This document shows positions 56,979 to 64,000 of a DNA stretch of 64,000 bases, one piece after another (the stretch's first letter is position 1; each line of letters starts with the position of its first letter). The stretch comes from Oleomonas cavernae (GTDB lineage: Bacteria > Pseudomonadota > Alphaproteobacteria > Zavarziniales > Zavarziniaceae). The DNA lies in contig NZ_QYUK01000008.1 of NCBI RefSeq assembly GCF_003590945.1, positions 310,001 through 374,000 of the forward strand. The letters are read 5' to 3'. A program made the translations under genes and the position numbers. The notes beneath the pieces were generated by a model. It saw only the letters and a program-made list of their open reading frames with translations. It made no database searches and had not been told where the DNA came from.

Positions 56979-58835
56979 TCAAATCACGATCACGTCGTTG
57001 CCCGGCGGATCTGCATAAAGCTTTTCGACGAGATGTGCCCGGCGGGTCAAGGCCGCTTTCTGGTTGATGTAGCCCTTGTCGGTCATCTCGCCGCCATCGA
57101 GGCTGGCCGGCTCGGCCATGAACAGGACCCGTTTGATCGCGGTCGACGATCCCGGATTGGCCCGATTGTGGGCGCGCAGACCCTGGCGGACATGCTCGAC
57201 CAGCTGGTTGGCGTTCAGCATGGTCTCCAGCGAGCCCAGCGCCGCCTCGTCGGTCACGATCTTGGGCAGGCCGACATAGTTGGGCCAGGCCAGCACGGCG
57301 ACGTACTTGCGGTCATGACCGCAGACAACGGCATCCTGGATCGCCGGGGCGGCGGCGGTGACCACGTCGACCCGCAGCTTGCCCGCCTGCACCCAGGTGC
57401 CGGTGTCGAGCTTGAAGTCCTCGGCCACGCGGCCGTCGAACACCAGCCCCAGTTCGGGATGCGCCGGATCCTCGAACTTCGCCGCGTCGCCGATGCAGTA
57501 GAAGCCTTCCTCGTCGAACGACTCGGCGGTCTTCTTGGGTTCCTTGAAATAGCCGGGCGTCACCAGCGGCCCGCGGACGCGCACCTCGTAGGTGGGGCCG
57601 GAGGGCACCAGCTTCAGTTCGACGCCGGGCAGCGGCAGGCCGATCATGCCCACCCGCTCGCTCTCGCGGAACACGCTGGTCGCGGTCGGCGCGGTTTCGG
57701 TCGAGCCCCAGCCGGTGGTGAAGATCACCCGCTCGCCCGTGGTCTTGACCGCCAGCGCCTGGAAACGTTCCCACAGGTCCTGGCTCAGCGCCGCGCCGCC
57801 ATAGGCGCAGAAGCGCAGCTTCTTGAAGAAGGTCTTGGCCATCGCCTCGTCCTTCTCCATGGCCGACAGCAGCATGGAATAGGCCACCGGCACGTTGAGG
57901 TAGGTGGTGGGCGAAATCTCGCGCAGGTTGGCGATGGTCTCGTCGAACAGGCCGGGCAGCGGCCGGCCGTCATCGATATAAAGGCTGCCGCCGGCGGCCA
58001 GGAGGCCGTGCAGGTTGGCATTGCCGCCGAAGGTATGGCTCCAGGGCAGCCAGTCGACCGCGACCGGCGGGCCGTCCTCGGCAAACCACTTGTCATGGTC
58101 GAGCACCAGCGACCGCGACATGGCAGCATTGGCGCACAGCATGCGGTGGGTGTTGATCACCGCCTTGGGCATGCCCGTCGAGCCCGAGGTGAACAGGTAC
58201 TTGCAGACGGTGTCGGGACCCAGGCGCTGATAGGCGGCCTCGACCTCGGGGCCCACGGGGGTCTTCAACAAATCGTGGAAATCGGTCGCGGGGATGGCAC
58301 TGGGCGCATCCGCGACATAGACGACTTCGACCCCGTCGAGGTTCAGCTTCGAGATCGCCGCCTCGAAGAAGCGGCCGTTCTGGACGAACAGGATCTTGGG
58401 CTTGATCAGGTCGAAGACGTAGACCAGCTTGGCATGGTCGTTCGACATCAGCGAATAGGCTTGGCTGATCGAGCTGACCGGCACCCCGGCGGCGATCGCG
58501 CCGTACATGATCAGGGCGTGCTCGATCGAATTGCCCGACAGGACCATGACCGGGTCCTCCTCGGTCAGGCCGCGCGCCAGCAGCGCCGCCGCGATCGCGT
58601 CGACATAGCCCAGGCCCGCCGCATAGCTGATCTTGCGCCAGCTCCGGTCGGCCCCGCGCTGGGCCAGCCAGGTCACATCCGGCCGCGCCGCCGCCCATTT
58701 GCGCAAGGGCACCAGCATGTTGCGGTCGTAATCGCCCAGGGGGTGGGCCAGCCGCAGGATCATCTCGCCATTGGGTCGACGCTCGACCTCGAGATCGTTC
58801 GACAGGTAGCGGATCTTGCGAAACGGCGGCTTCAT
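56979..58835 (-). CDS. fcs: Feruloyl-CoA synthetase
   Basis: This 618-residue adenylate-forming ligase has the P-loop YLFTSGSTGMPKAVINTHRML, TTGWGSTETAPTATSVF and the hinge VFDGRVAEDFKLDTGTWV. The start region PFRKIRYLSNDLEVERRPNGE is typical of feruloyl-CoA synthases, which activate ferulic or related hydroxycinnamic acids. ATG 58835 follows GGGAGAGGGAG, 8-9 bases away; the longer frame to 59612 is not coding. Neither a feruloyl-CoA hydratase-lyase nor vanillin dehydrogenase gene is in the window. It is 116 bases after a quinone-oxidoreductase-like gene. Confidence 0.9.
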   Translation of the reverse strand: MKPPFRKIRYLSNDLEVERRPNGEMILRLAHPLGDYDRNMLVPLRKWAAARPDVTWLAQRGADRSWRKISYAAGLGYVDAIAAALLARGLTEEDPVMVLSGNSIEHALIMYGAIAAGVPVSSISQAYSLMSNDHAKLVYVFDLIKPKILFVQNGRFFEAAISKLNLDGVEVVYVADAPSAIPATDFHDLLKTPVGPEVEAAYQRLGPDTVCKYLFTSGSTGMPKAVINTHRMLCANAAMSRSLVLDHDKWFAEDGPPVAVDWLPWSHTFGGNANLHGLLAAGGSLYIDDGRPLPGLFDETIANLREISPTTYLNVPVAYSMLLSAMEKDEAMAKTFFKKLRFCAYGGAALSQDLWERFQALAVKTTGERVIFTTGWGSTETAPTATSVFRESERVGMIGLPLPGVELKLVPSGPTYEVRVRGPLVTPGYFKEPKKTAESFDEEGFYCIGDAAKFEDPAHPELGLVFDGRVAEDFKLDTGTWVQAGKLRVDVVTAAAPAIQDAVVCGHDRKYVAVLAWPNYVGLPKIVTDEAALGSLETMLNANQLVEHVRQGLRAHNRANPGSSTAIKRVLFMAEPASLDGGEMTDKGYINQKAALTRRAHLVEKLYADPPGNDVIVI

Positions 58836-58951: not shown

Positions 58952-59943
58952 TCAGCCGTTGACGTCGATCACCACCCGCCCGCGCACCTTGCCGTCGAGG
59001 ATGGCATGGGCCAGGGCCGGAACGTCGTCCAGCCCCTTGGTCTGCGTGATGGCCTGCAGCTTGGCCCTGTCGAGATCCGTGGCCAGGCGTGCCCAGGCCT
59101 CCTCGCGGCGGGCGCGGGGCGCCATCACCGAATCGATGCCGTAGAGGGTGACGCCACGCAGAATGAAGGGGAAGACGCTGCCCGGCAGGTCGGCCCCCTG
59201 GGCCAGGCCGCAGGCGGCGACGGCACCGTTGTAGCGAAGCTGGGACAGGGCATTGGCCAGCGTGGAACTGCCCACGGTGTCGATCACCCCGGCCCAGCGT
59301 TCCTTGGCCAGCGGCTTGGCCGGGCCGGACAGTTCCGCCCGCTCGACGATCGTCGACGCCCCCAACGCCTTCAGCCAATCCGCCTCGGCCGGCCGGCCGG
59401 TGGCGGCGGCGACGGTGAAGCCCTTCCCGGCGAGCAGCGCGATCGCCACCGAGCCGACGCCGCCGGCCGCCCCGGTCACCAGAACCTCGCCCCGGTCGGG
59501 GGTCAGCCCGTGTTTTTCCAGCGCCAGGACCGAGAGCATGGCGGTATAGCCGGCGGTGCCGATGGCCATGGTTTCCGCTGCAGTGAAGGCGGCGGGGCGG
59601 CGAATCAGCCAATCGCCCTTCACCCGGGCGCGGGTGCCAAGCCCGCCCCAGTGGCCTTCACCCACCCCCAGCCGTTCAGGACGACCGCATCGCCCGGCCG
59701 CCAATCGGGATTGTCCGAGGCTTCGACCGTCCCGGCGAAATCGATGCCGGGAACAAAGGGGAACTTGCGCACGATCTTGCCGCGCCCGGTGATCGCCAGG
59801 CCGTCCTTGTAGTTGATGGTCGAATGGCTGACCGCCACGGTGACGTCGCCGACAGGCAGATCCGCCAGCGGCACGGCCTTGATCTCGCTGTGTGTCTTGC
59901 CGTCGATATCGGTCAGATAGACGGCGCGGAACGTGTCGGCCAT
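58952..59943 (-). CDS. YhdH/AcuI-type acrylyl-CoA reductase-like MDR, split by a frameshift
   Basis: This is a protein of about 330 residues. The N-terminal part reads [36 protein letters not shown] and breaks after LNGWG near 59655. It resumes with [21 protein letters not shown] and [22 protein letters not shown]. The nucleotide-binding stretch [17 protein letters not shown] and the end [18 protein letters not shown] agree with the YhdH/AcuI group, which includes acrylyl-CoA reductase. One more G in the GGGGG run restores the join. ATG 59943. Substrate not certain. Confidence 0.85.
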
Positions 59944-60090: not shown

Positions 60091-61113
60091 ATGCTGCGAC
60101 GCCTGCTGACCATCGGATTCCTGGCCGCCGCGCCGGCCTTGGGCCTCGCGACAGCCGCGACGGCAGCCGAGCGCCCGGCGGTGATCGCGCGGGACGGCAG
60201 CGCCGTCACCTTCCCCGAAGCCACCCTTGCAGCACTCGATCTGGCGATCCTGCAAGGCGCCGACAGCCTGCGGCTGGATGTCTATCAGACCCTGGACGGT
60301 GTCCTCGTCATACGCACCGCCCGCGATCTCGCCGCCACCACCAATGCCGCCTCGGTGCTGGCCCGCCCGGTGGGGGTGAAGGGCGAGCCGCCGGTGGCGG
60401 GTTTCCCGGTCGATCTGGTGCCCTACAGCAGCTATGCCCAGTTGACCGCGCGCCAGATCGTCGCCGGCCGCGATCTGCGCTTCGACGACATGTTCCCGGC
60501 GCCGATCCTGGAGGACGCCTTCGCCCTGATCGCCAGGCGGCAGATCGACAGCCGCCGCACCATCGGCCTGCTGATCGTGCTGCACGACACCCAGGTCCAC
60601 GCCGCGCGCGGCCGCCCGATGGAGCCGCGGCTGATCGCCTCGATGCAGAGATACGGCCTGGCCGGGGCGCCGCAGATCATGATCGGTGCCAGCGAACCCA
60701 CGAGCCTTCAGCAACTGGCCGGTCCGGGCAACCCGCGCGTCTTCGTGCTGGGTCCGTCGACCGCGCGCCCGGCCGATTCAGCGGTGACCAGGAACAGCGC
60801 GACCTTCGGCGACTATCAGGCGCCTGCAGGCTTGCGCGCCATCCGCGGCTTTGCCGATGCCGTGCTGGTCGATTTCCCGGATGTCCAGGGTTACTACGCC
60901 GACGGCGCCGCGATGCCGCCCTCGACCATCGTCGCCGATGCCAGGGCCGCCGGCCTCGGCCTTTATGTCGGCGGCTTCGCCGACGCCGACGACCCGCTGA
61001 AGCCCCGGCGCGAGGCGATCGATTCTTATGCGCGGGTCTTTGCCCTGGGCGTCGACGGCATCGTCACCGACGAACCGGCTCGCGCCGTCGCCGCCAGGCG
61101 CCACGGCCGCTAG
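60091..61113 (+). CDS. Secreted GDPD-fold protein lacking catalytic residues
   Basis: This is a 340-residue protein with a signal peptide (MLRRLLTIGFLAAAPALG...ATAAE). Its backbone follows glycerophosphodiester phosphodiesterases: VIARDGSAVTFPEATLAALD against the family HRG...PENTLAA, GADSLRLDVYQTLDG against GADxIExDV, and GVLVIRTARDLAATTN against HDxxLxRTT. The catalytic His of HRG is Arg. The metal-binding Glu of ExD is Arg. The second His-Asp pair is Thr-Ala. The Glu in the middle sheet is also absent (IGLLIVL). It is therefore probably a non-catalytic member with a binding role. It is followed by a toxin-antitoxin pair, unrelated. Confidence 0.8.
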   Translation: MLRRLLTIGFLAAAPALGLATAATAAERPAVIARDGSAVTFPEATLAALDLAILQGADSLRLDVYQTLDGVLVIRTARDLAATTNAASVLARPVGVKGEPPVAGFPVDLVPYSSYAQLTARQIVAGRDLRFDDMFPAPILEDAFALIARRQIDSRRTIGLLIVLHDTQVHAARGRPMEPRLIASMQRYGLAGAPQIMIGASEPTSLQQLAGPGNPRVFVLGPSTARPADSAVTRNSATFGDYQAPAGLRAIRGFADAVLVDFPDVQGYYADGAAMPPSTIVADARAAGLGLYVGGFADADDPLKPRREAIDSYARVFALGVDGIVTDEPARAVAARRHGR

Positions 61114-61213: not shown

Positions 61214-61660
61214 ATGACCACCCAGATCGTTCGGTTCGCCGGATTGTCGGAGCAGGATCGCCGGACCACCGCGCCGTTGCCGAAGCTCGGGCACGGCGAT
61301 CGGGTGGAACTGCGTGTCCGCCGCGAGGGTGGCCAGAATCAGACGTTTTTCCTGCCGCCGTCCGCACTCGCGGCCGTCGAGACCCTGTTGGCCCATTTGC
61401 TGAGCGGCGAGCGCGTCGCGATGCTCACAGAAGATCAGGAAGTAAGCCCGAATGACGCGGCAAGCGTCCTCGGCATATCGCGCCCCCTCGTGGTCCACCG
61501 CATGGATATCGGCGATCTGCCCTTCCGCTACGTGGGGAAGCACCGCCGGGCCAAGCTGAAAGACGTGCTGGCGCTGAAGCTGCGAATCGACACTCAGCGC
61601 GCCGCGATGGAAGCCCTTGCCGACGATGCCGAGGATCTCAATCGGCGCCATGGCGTTTGA
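61214..61660 (+). CDS. Antitoxin with excisionase-like HTH
   Basis: This is a 148-residue protein. The C-terminal half EVSPNDAASVLGISRPLVVHRMDIGDLPFRYVGKHRRAKLKDVLALK is a MerR/excisionase-like DNA-binding helix pair with a wing. The N-terminal part carries EQDRRTTAPLPKLGHGDRVEL. ATG 61214 follows AGGAG. It overlaps the PIN gene by 11 bases, a normal toxin-antitoxin arrangement. The antitoxin would neutralise the PIN nuclease and repress the operon. Confidence 0.8.
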   Translation: MTTQIVRFAGLSEQDRRTTAPLPKLGHGDRVELRVRREGGQNQTFFLPPSALAAVETLLAHLLSGERVAMLTEDQEVSPNDAASVLGISRPLVVHRMDIGDLPFRYVGKHRRAKLKDVLALKLRIDTQRAAMEALADDAEDLNRRHGV

Positions 61661-62225
61661 GCCTTCCGTCGCGGTTTGCGATGCCTGCGTCCTCTACCCG
61701 TTCCACCTGAGGAACATCATCGTCCAGGCCGCGGTCGATCACCTCGTCGACCTGCGCTGGACAGCCGAGATTCACGACGAATGGATCCGCAATCTGATTG
61801 CCAAGACACCAGCCATATTGGTTGAGCGCTTGCAGATTACACGGCAACTGATGGAACGCGCGTTGCCGACGGCCACGGTTGTCAACTACGAGAAGCATAT
61901 TCCGGCGGTAGTCTTGCCTGATCCCAACGATCGCCATGTCGTCGCCGCGGCGATAGCGGCCAAGGCCTCGCTGATCATCACCTGGAATTTGCGCGACTTC
62001 CCTATAGCCACGCTTGAGAAACACGGGCTACGCAGACTATCGCCGGACACTTTCCTGGCCGATCTCTACGACAAGGTGCCACAGTTGGTTGTCGGTTCCT
62101 TGGCGAATGCCCGGCGCAATCTGCGCAAGACCGATACGTCGGTTGCCGGCTTCATCGACATCCTGACCCACCACAAACTCGCCCGGCTCGCAAACCGCGT
62201 CGAGAAGCATCTGGCTGATCTCTGA
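61650..62225 (+). CDS. PIN-domain toxin (VapC-like ribonuclease)
   Basis: This is a 191-residue PIN-fold protein. The first acidic residue lies in AVCDACVLYPFHLRNI. A second set is EIHDEWIRNLI, and a third DPNDRHVVAAAIAAKASLIITWNLRDFP. The family degrades RNA, often tRNA. ATG 61650 lies inside the antitoxin gene. It is longer than classic VapC (about 130 residues), with a C-terminal helical extension (VGSLANARRNLRKTDTSV). GC is lower than neighbours, compatible with acquisition. Confidence 0.83.
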   Translation: MAFEPSVAVCDACVLYPFHLRNIIVQAAVDHLVDLRWTAEIHDEWIRNLIAKTPAILVERLQITRQLMERALPTATVVNYEKHIPAVVLPDPNDRHVVAAAIAAKASLIITWNLRDFPIATLEKHGLRRLSPDTFLADLYDKVPQLVVGSLANARRNLRKTDTSVAGFIDILTHHKLARLANRVEKHLADL

Positions 62226-62262: not shown

Positions 62263-63464
62263 TCAAGCGCGCACCACACCGTCCAGCGGGCGCAGGCCGC
62301 CGCCGTCGGGGAAGACCCGGGCCGCCACGTCCGCCGCCGGCAGTCCCAGGTGGTTGATCAGCGTCGCCAGGTAGAGGCGGCGCAGGTCGGTAGTCGGCGC
62401 CAGGTCGCGGCCGTCGAGCAACTGCGCCTTGTCGAGGCCCGGCCATTGCCCGTGGACCGTGGCACCGTCCAGGTTGCCGCCGAAGATGAAGGCGGCCGAG
62501 GCGGTGCCGTGGTCGGTTCCGCCGGTGCCGTTGGGCGCCGCGGTACGGCCGAATTCGGTGACGGCGATGACCAGCGTGTCGCGCCAGACCGCAGGCCCCA
62601 GTTCGTTCTTCAACAGCACGGCCCCATCGGCCACCGGCCGCAGCGCCGCCGCCAGCCGGCCGTCGGTGACACCCTGATTGGCATGGGTATCCCAGCCCAG
62701 CAGGTCGATGGTGGCGACCCGCGGCCCTTCGCGGTCGCGCAGCAGGCGCGCCAGGCCGACGATCAGCGGTTCCATCTGCTTGGGGCCGGCGGCCATGCTT
62801 CCCGGGGTGGCCAGGTCCATCCCGGCCCCTGCCGCCATCGCGCTGGTCTCGCGCGCTTCGGCCAGCATGGCGTGAAACAGTTCGTCCTTGGCATAGAACC
62901 GGTCGAGCGTGTCGAGCAGCACGCCATCGGGCGCCGGCAGGATCTGCGGCGACCAGGTCGTGACCGAGGCCGGGCCGGTGAGGAGCAACGGCACCGCCAG
63001 GCCGACCGCCAGCCCCGTCCCCCGGCCACGGCGACCGCCCGGTTGAGCCAGCCGGTGGCACTGCCCGACGGCCCCGTGCCGCCGTTCTCCAGGACATTCT
63101 GGGCATCGAAATGCGAGCGTTCGCGATAGGGCGTGGCGGTGGCGTGCAGCACCTGCATCTCGCCACCGCGCCACAGCGGCATGGCCGATTGCAGCGCCGG
63201 ATGCAGGCCGAAGCGGCCGTCGAGATCGATCATGCCGCCGCTCTTGCCCGGTACGGCCAGGGCCAAGGCCCCCCGGGTCGCCCCATAGGCGGGATCGGCA
63301 TAGGGCGGCACCGCCGCCAGGCCGTCCATGCCACCGCGCAGCACCAGGACGATCAGGCGCTTGTTGCCCGGTATGCGGGCCAGCGCGAAGCGTGGCCCCA
63401 GGGCCAGGCCCAGCCCGCCCAGGCCGGCCGAAATCAGGAAGCGACGGCGATCGAGACGAACCAT
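62263..63464 (-). CDS. DUF1501 protein with Tat signal, split by a frameshift
   Basis: This is a protein of about 400 residues. It starts with a twin-arginine-type signal, RLDRRRFLISAGLGGLGLALG. The DUF1501 (sulfatase/phosphatase-like fold) core has VLVLRGGMDGLAAVPPYAD and FGLHPALQSAMPLW. The frame breaks at about 63020, then TGLAVGLAVPLLLTGPA resumes. FGRTAAPNGTGGTDHGTASAAFIFGG ends the domain. One more G in the GGGGG run restores it. ATG 63464 follows GGAGG. It is 4 bases after the DUF1800 gene; these two families commonly occur together as exported proteins of unknown role. Confidence 0.85.
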
Positions 63465-63468
63465 GGCC

Positions 63469-64000
63469 CTACCTCCGCAGGAATTGAGGGCTGGCCAGCA
63501 CCAGGGCAATCGCACTGGCCCTGTCGCCCGCCCGGCGCACCGAATCGGCCACGTCGGCCGGCGCCGCCGCGCCCAGGGCCTGCACGAGCAGGGCATTGCC
63601 GTCGCCGACGGGCGCCAGGCGCGCGCCCACCTTCTGGGCCAGTTCGATCCGCCGCATCAGCGAATCGGGGCTCAACCACTCCCGCCCCGTGTCGGGCCAG
63701 CCCTTGGGCGAAGGGGCGGTGAAGGGTTGCTGCCCCAGCAGCTTCATGGCGCCGACCGCGACCTCCGGCTCGGGCACCAGGCCGATCAGGCGATAGATCG
63801 AGATGACGAGATCGGTGGGCGACTTCACCTTGGTCAGGGGCGCCTGCCAGGGCTGGGCCAGGTCGACCAGGGCCAGCGACATCGCCTTGAGATCGCCGCC
63901 GCTGTCGCGGAACACCTTGGCGATGCCGGCCACCGCCTCGGCAGGGGGATCGTCGGCCACGAAATGGCGCACCAGCTTGGTCGCCAGGTGGCTGGCGGTG
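63469..64000 (-). CDS. DUF1800 protein, N-terminal part outside the window
   Basis: This is the C-terminal 177 residues of a DUF1800 protein, with its start beyond the right edge. The sequence TASHLATKLVRHFVADDPPAEAV followed by AKVFRDSGGDLKAMSLALVDL and ALGAAAPADVADSVRRAGDRASAIALVLASPQFLRR is characteristic. It is co-directional with the DUF1501 gene, 4 bases apart. Function unknown. Confidence 0.88.
   Translation of the reverse strand, partial: TASHLATKLVRHFVADDPPAEAVAGIAKVFRDSGGDLKAMSLALVDLAQPWQAPLTKVKSPTDLVISIYRLIGLVPEPEVAVGAMKLLGQQPFTAPSPKGWPDTGREWLSPDSLMRRIELAQKVGARLAPVGDGNALLVQALGAAAPADVADSVRRAGDRASAIALVLASPQFLRR

Follow-up and report, generated by a model that had tools for sequence, protein, structure and literature searches.

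The window analysed here, a 64,000-nucleotide stretch of the Oleomonas cavernae genome (G000, 5.64 Mb; contig C8), contains a gene whose product, P0001, belongs to the glycerophosphodiester phosphodiesterase (GDPD) superfamily by descent and has lost most of the residues on which that enzyme family relies (Table 1). The reading frame consists of 340 codons and a stop with no internal stop, and the corresponding Met is the start in most of the orthologues aligned with it; the first-pass annotation had given the coordinates, frame and start correctly and had rightly described the gene as intact. At the N terminus we recognised by eye an RR pair, a hydrophobic stretch and an A-x-A end, in a region that has low confidence in the structure model. 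A scan of the locus for promoters and terminators returned 0 and 0, and a role as a defence gene was rejected as PADLOC gave no match for the gene.

Table 1. Features at the pseudo-GDPD locus, with coordinates in the window
Feature	Coordinates	Strand	Basis
Pseudo-GDPD coding sequence, 340 aa (P0001)	60091..61113	+	Translation, Pfam PF03009, orthologues in 6 further genomes
Probable Sec signal peptide, residues 1-26, lipobox Cys absent	60091..60168	+	By eye
R34-D35-G36 in place of His-Arg-Gly; catalytic His lost	60190..60198	+	Alignments; R34 in 7/7 of the clade
R61-L62-D63 in place of E-x-D; first metal Glu lost, Asp kept	60271..60279	+	Alignments
T76-A77 in place of His-Asp/Glu; second catalytic His lost	60316..60321	+	Alignments
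V163-L164-H165-D166 in place of Glu-x-Lys-x; third metal Glu lost	60577..60588	+	Alignments
G294-G295-F296-A297 at the end of strand 290-296, in place of GlpQ (W/Y)-T-F-R; clade signature	60970..60981	+	7/7 invariant
Zinc-type dehydrogenase/oxidoreductase, divergent neighbour, in two frames	58952..59943	-	Pieces 59620-59943 and 58952-59704; PF00107 on the second
AMP-binding ligase, divergent neighbour in the other genomes of the genus	56979..58835	-	Translation, Pfam PF00501, synteny

The two pieces of the divergent oxidoreductase match consecutive segments of a 330-aa protein with 62% and 70% identity; this homologue, beside the sister-genus gene, is a single open frame, and the split in the window reflects either a genuine lesion of the strain's gene or a mistake in the assembly. 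Pfam assignments of the neighbouring genes indicated no pathway for the pseudo-GDPD.

P0001 passes the curated cut-off of the Pfam GDPD family PF03009 (49.1 bits against a cut-off of 23.6, residues 36-330) and has the GDPD TIM-barrel fold in the predicted model, and PF03009 matches all seven members of its clade (E up to 0.001). Against the NCBIfam GlpQ equivalog NF008354, which requires 254 bits, it scored 29.3. According to the available text of PMC4926365, the GDPD family motif is HR..EN..ExD..HD, two histidines act as base and acid, a Glu-Asp-Glu site holds the metal, and Ala at any of the three metal ligands inactivates the Thermoanaerobacter tengcongensis enzyme; the available part of PMC10404611 describes mutants of Staphylococcus aureus LpgD that back the roles of both histidines and of the Mn site.

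Four of these five catalytic and metal positions are replaced in P0001 (Arg34, Arg61, Thr76 and Val163), the last of them being the third metal Glu, which in GDPDs is the Glu of a PE(I/T/L)K strand. Residue placement agrees in three alignments, made with the GlpQ paralogue of the window's genome, with E. coli GlpQ and with 61 other GDPDs, and the idea that catalytic residues had merely been misplaced was rejected on this agreement. The replacements listed in the first-pass annotation were thus confirmed in the His-Arg-Gly motif, at the Glu of ExD, in the His-Asp/His-Glu motif and at the third Glu, but its wording that all catalytic positions had been replaced overstated the loss, which is four of five because the six genus proteins all retain Asp63, the Asp of ExD. 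Both catalytic histidines of GlpQ are absent from P0001, and neither the Glu-x-Asp nor the ExK-Glu part of the metal site is intact. P0001 has the sequence hallmark of a pseudoenzyme, as a homologue lacking catalytic residues whose loss is conserved in seven of seven orthologues.

We read the catalytic state on 68 distinct sequences, which remained from 108 open-frame matches (E up to 1e-10) after identical or contained sequences had been removed. The five positions are R, R, D, T and V in each of the six genus proteins, that is, one catalytic residue out of five, and because this set is identical in 6/6 orthologues, chance or a reading error is ruled out; a wrong frame was also rejected, since the orthologues align over the whole chain. 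In the sister-genus protein the positions read R, L, Q, P and V, with Leu at 61, Gln at 63 and Pro at 76, so that none of the five catalytic residues is left. Among the 61 other GDPDs, which were picked by similarity to the clade and are not a random sample of the family, 57 keep all five residues and 4 keep four, two of these having Asp for the third Glu and two an alignment gap there. Val163 is found in all seven clade members and His165 and Asp166 in six, position 77 varies across the clade (A, R, S or G), and position 294 is W, Y, F, T or a gap in other GDPDs.

Orthologues were found in all six genomes of the genus (the window's included) and in the one genome of the sister genus (G006), and the catalytic loss is conserved in each of the seven. 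When 60 genomes, including that of the window, were searched, identity to P0001 was 63-69% in the five other genus genomes and 44% in the sister genus, and the next matches were other GDPDs at 111 bits or less. Profile searches of 385 genomes of the class and 398 of the phylum, two overlapping sets, added no further clade member: the known members scored 481-642 bits and everything else at most 164.4, these other matches being known by score alone except for 30 that were given loci and some more that were read. A pattern-based scan of an 84,980-species collection yielded 20 loci, of which 5 were already known clade members, and HRG was present in all 13 that were read of the 15 others (L036 and L040 were left out). 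Spread on plasmids was rejected, as the 41 records returned by tblastn from a plasmid collection were all below 60% identity; the 10 listed of these 41 had 26.5-30.6% identity, five being annotated as GDPD and five unannotated.

In a tree of 50 of the 68 sequences (score over 85 and length over 250; midpoint root for drawing only), one branch, with support 100/100 and a long stem, separates the seven clade members from the rest. Their frames are open in all seven genomes at pairwise identities of 40-89%, on which ground a recent pseudogene was rejected. The locus is syntenic, the pseudo-GDPD facing the AMP-binding ligase or, in the window's genome and the sister genus, the oxidoreductase, and usg is present in six of the seven stretches examined and absent from that of G005; genes were called for this comparison with a crude GC-at-third-position heuristic that over-extends some starts and missed the pseudo-GDPD itself in G001 and G003, where its position was taken from other searches. 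As judged from the tree and the shared locus, the clade is the product of an old single loss and has been inherited vertically.

The GDPD fold proposed in the first-pass annotation is kept in the predicted structure. An AlphaFold2 model from a 48-sequence alignment had a mean pLDDT of 91.5 and matched E. coli GlpQ (1t8q) with Z 35.5, rmsd 2.5 and 17% identity over 302 residues, and Haemophilus influenzae protein D (8cwp) with Z 33.9; the alignment comprised 48 of the 50 tree rows, with P0001 standing for L003 and the near-copies L110 and L111 left out, and 41 of its sequences are GDPDs with catalytic residues, which may pull the model towards GlpQ. Modelling from the seven clade members only, and so without such rows, gave a mean pLDDT of 72 for the best of five models (38-62 for the others) and a match to 1t8q with Z 28.8. 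P0001 thus resembles the periplasmic GlpQ proteins (E. coli 1t8q/1ydy and protein D) in fold across the whole mature chain, in its signal peptide as recognised by eye, in the P-E-x-T-L and G-A-D motifs and in a full-length profile alignment to E. coli GlpQ, and it differs from them in that the two catalytic histidines and all but one of the three metal ligands have been replaced and that G-G-F-A stands where they have W/Y-T-F-R.

Of the 314 positions of the mature chain, the six genus members agree at 159, and all seven proteins at 95. Within the genus there is no variation in nine of ten canonical active-site columns (p 0.011), nor in six of the seven replaced columns (p 0.065 against the background of 159/314), both sets of columns having been chosen after the alignment had been seen. 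Arg34, Val163 and the G294-G295-F296-A297 signature are kept in 7/7, while Arg61, Asp63, Tyr65, Thr76, His165 and Asp166 differ in the sister genus; no His at all is invariant across the seven, and the only invariant Glu residues are Glu43, Glu178 and Glu328. Because the replacements at the catalytic site mostly differ in the sister genus, a ligand site conserved across the clade cannot be named from sequence. For the same reason a family-wide new active site on R61, D63, T76, H165 and D166 is unsupported; a site of this kind at the level of the genus is possible.

This bears on the idea that P0001 is a repurposed enzyme with a new, genus-specific and perhaps metal-free active site made of Arg34, Arg61, Asp63, Tyr65, His165 and Asp166, to which we give a small but real chance. 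TIM barrels often change chemistry, the six residues are invariant in all six genus members, and one fold match of the model, 7wwc (Z 25.0, 230 residues), is part of a multidomain beta-1,3(4)-glucanase entry. However, all of these residues except Arg34 differ in the sister-genus protein, and the neighbouring genes suggest no substrate. The pocket is fixed in the genus and altered in the sister genus, and binding or scaffolding is therefore favoured over a conserved new chemistry.

Pairwise NG86 counts, which ignore the codon bias of the GC-rich genome, gave dN/dS values of 0.13-0.41 for the pseudo-GDPD within the genus (15 pairs), indicating purifying selection, with the lowest value in the pair G004-G005. 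By the same measure three neighbouring genes in five of these genomes gave 0.07-0.31 (30 pairs), and in the pair G000-G002 the pseudo-GDPD, at 0.38, has evolved faster than its neighbours, at 0.19-0.27. Between the genus and the sister genus dN/dS rose to 0.57-0.75 (6 pairs) at a dS of 0.8-1.0. The pseudo-GDPD is constrained, though less tightly than the neighbouring genes. We consider it very unlikely that the gene is decaying and has no present function. Its faster evolution, the high dN/dS against the sister genus, the drift of the pocket and the presence next to it of an oxidoreductase gene that is itself split over two frames would all fit decay, but the frame has stayed open in seven of seven genomes down to 40% identity, dN/dS is as low as 0.13, the barrel core is kept and the gene has remained at the same locus.

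The genomes differ in the other GDPDs that accompany the pseudo-GDPD. The window's genome encodes on another contig a GlpQ with full catalytic residues (L001, G000:C16:352432-353346), which is 29% identical to P0001, and no GlpQ match was found in the genomes G002 to G005. Since G003 and G005 are only 74-75% complete, the absence of GlpQ is firm for G002 (100% complete) and G004 (99%) only. The GlpQ of the window's genome may reflect either a gain in that strain or losses in G002 to G005. A short UgpQ-type GDPD is present in all six genus genomes and in G002 and G004 is the sole GDPD match besides the pseudo-GDPD. One genome, G001, has in addition a different GDPD of 425 aa (L100, G001:C17:4632-5459), which looks exported and has an intact HRG; the PF03009 search, which did not take in the sister genome G006, showed this type in no other genus genome.

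Some pseudoenzymes act on an active paralogue in the same cell, and the active-looking GlpQ of the window's genome would be a candidate for P0001 to regulate or partner. We hold this to be highly improbable, as the pseudo-GDPD is present in the two nearly complete genomes in which only the short UgpQ-type enzyme accompanies it; because G002 and G004 have no GlpQ match, the pseudo-GDPD is not tied to an active GlpQ. Least plausible of all is that P0001 still works as a GDPD with catalytic residues supplied from other positions, for which one could point to the retained Glu43, Arg75, Asp327 and, in the genus, Asp63, and to the new His165-Asp166 pair of the genus two residues past the lost Glu, because both histidines and two of the three metal carboxylates are gone with no invariant His to stand in for them, the sister-genus protein retains none of the five residues, and single changes of a metal ligand inactivate another GDPD according to the available text of PMC4926365.

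Conservation of the loss in seven of seven orthologues, purifying selection on the gene within the genus and retention of the predicted fold together indicate that P0001 is being maintained and that, almost certainly, it does not work as a GDPD. To this extent the reading of the first-pass annotation is supported; its further step to a non-enzymatic role is no more than probable, and neither a lipid head group nor a protein can be named as the ligand from sequence. We hypothesize that the clade goes back to a GlpQ-type gene whose product, in the ancestor of the Zavarzinia family, was stripped of its two catalytic histidines and of all but one of its three metal ligands, yet retained a signal peptide and a complete (beta/alpha)8 barrel. 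Metal-dependent hydrolysis of glycerophosphodiesters would have disappeared with these residues, and the product may, less securely, have become a periplasmic protein that acts by binding, as a carrier, sensor or scaffold. Binding could take place on a conserved outer face or at the remodelled mouth of the barrel, there through Arg34 and Arg61 and perhaps also Arg75 and Arg78. The partner could be another protein or an anionic ligand, for instance a polymer, a lipid head group or a glycerophosphodiester.

A non-catalytic binding or scaffold role is probable in our judgement. What counts against it is that R61, D63, T76, H165 and D166 are not kept in the sister genus, that the fixation of the replaced columns stands out only weakly from the background (p 0.065), that the gene evolves faster than its neighbours, and that dN/dS is high between genus and sister. 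The genus arginines near the barrel mouth (R34, R61, R75 and R78) would suit an anionic ligand, and we regard this version of the binding role as tentative and somewhat unlikely. Its narrower form is more doubtful still: Arg34, which replaces the catalytic His in 7/7, would capture a phosphodiester without cutting it, and the protein would be a dedicated periplasmic binding or sensing protein, kept even in cells without an active GlpQ.

Parallels to P0001 are known in eukaryotes. The plant SHV3/SVL proteins, which differ from P0001 in being GPI-anchored and eukaryotic and in having two tandem GDPD domains, are not known to have GDPD activity. These extracellular GDPD-like proteins have roles in cell-wall organisation, as indicated by the title of a study cited in PMC10756762. 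Fungal Pho81 is a CDK inhibitor in which SPX and ankyrin domains accompany the GDE/GDPD domain, whereas P0001 is a single-domain, exported, bacterial protein. According to the available text of PMC7587432, this domain of Pho81 is without critical catalytic residues and most likely inactive. Pseudoenzymes in general and an inactive fungal GDPD domain are thus already known; our searches of open-licence literature for an inactive bacterial GDPD found no described case.

Because P0001 passes the GDPD cut-off, Pfam-based annotation would label it a glycerophosphodiester phosphodiesterase, a label that is in all likelihood wrong. The clade offers a clear example of a barrel enzyme that lost catalysis once and has been kept by descent across a genus, and it allows two states to be compared, one stripped in part, with Asp63 retained, and one stripped completely, in the sister genus. 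Discovery of a ligand would place P0001, with its unusual ancestry, among the periplasmic binding proteins.

Farther downstream of the pseudo-GDPD, genes at 62263-63972 resemble DUF1501 proteins by eye, and a DUF1800 gene (Pfam; L073:11472-12788) lies beside them just outside the window; DUF1501 and DUF1800 proteins form an exported pair. Directly downstream, at 61214-62225, the gene for a 148-aa protein with no Pfam match overlaps that for a PIN_3-domain protein, and the two look like a toxin-antitoxin pair; G002 has other small genes at the corresponding spot.
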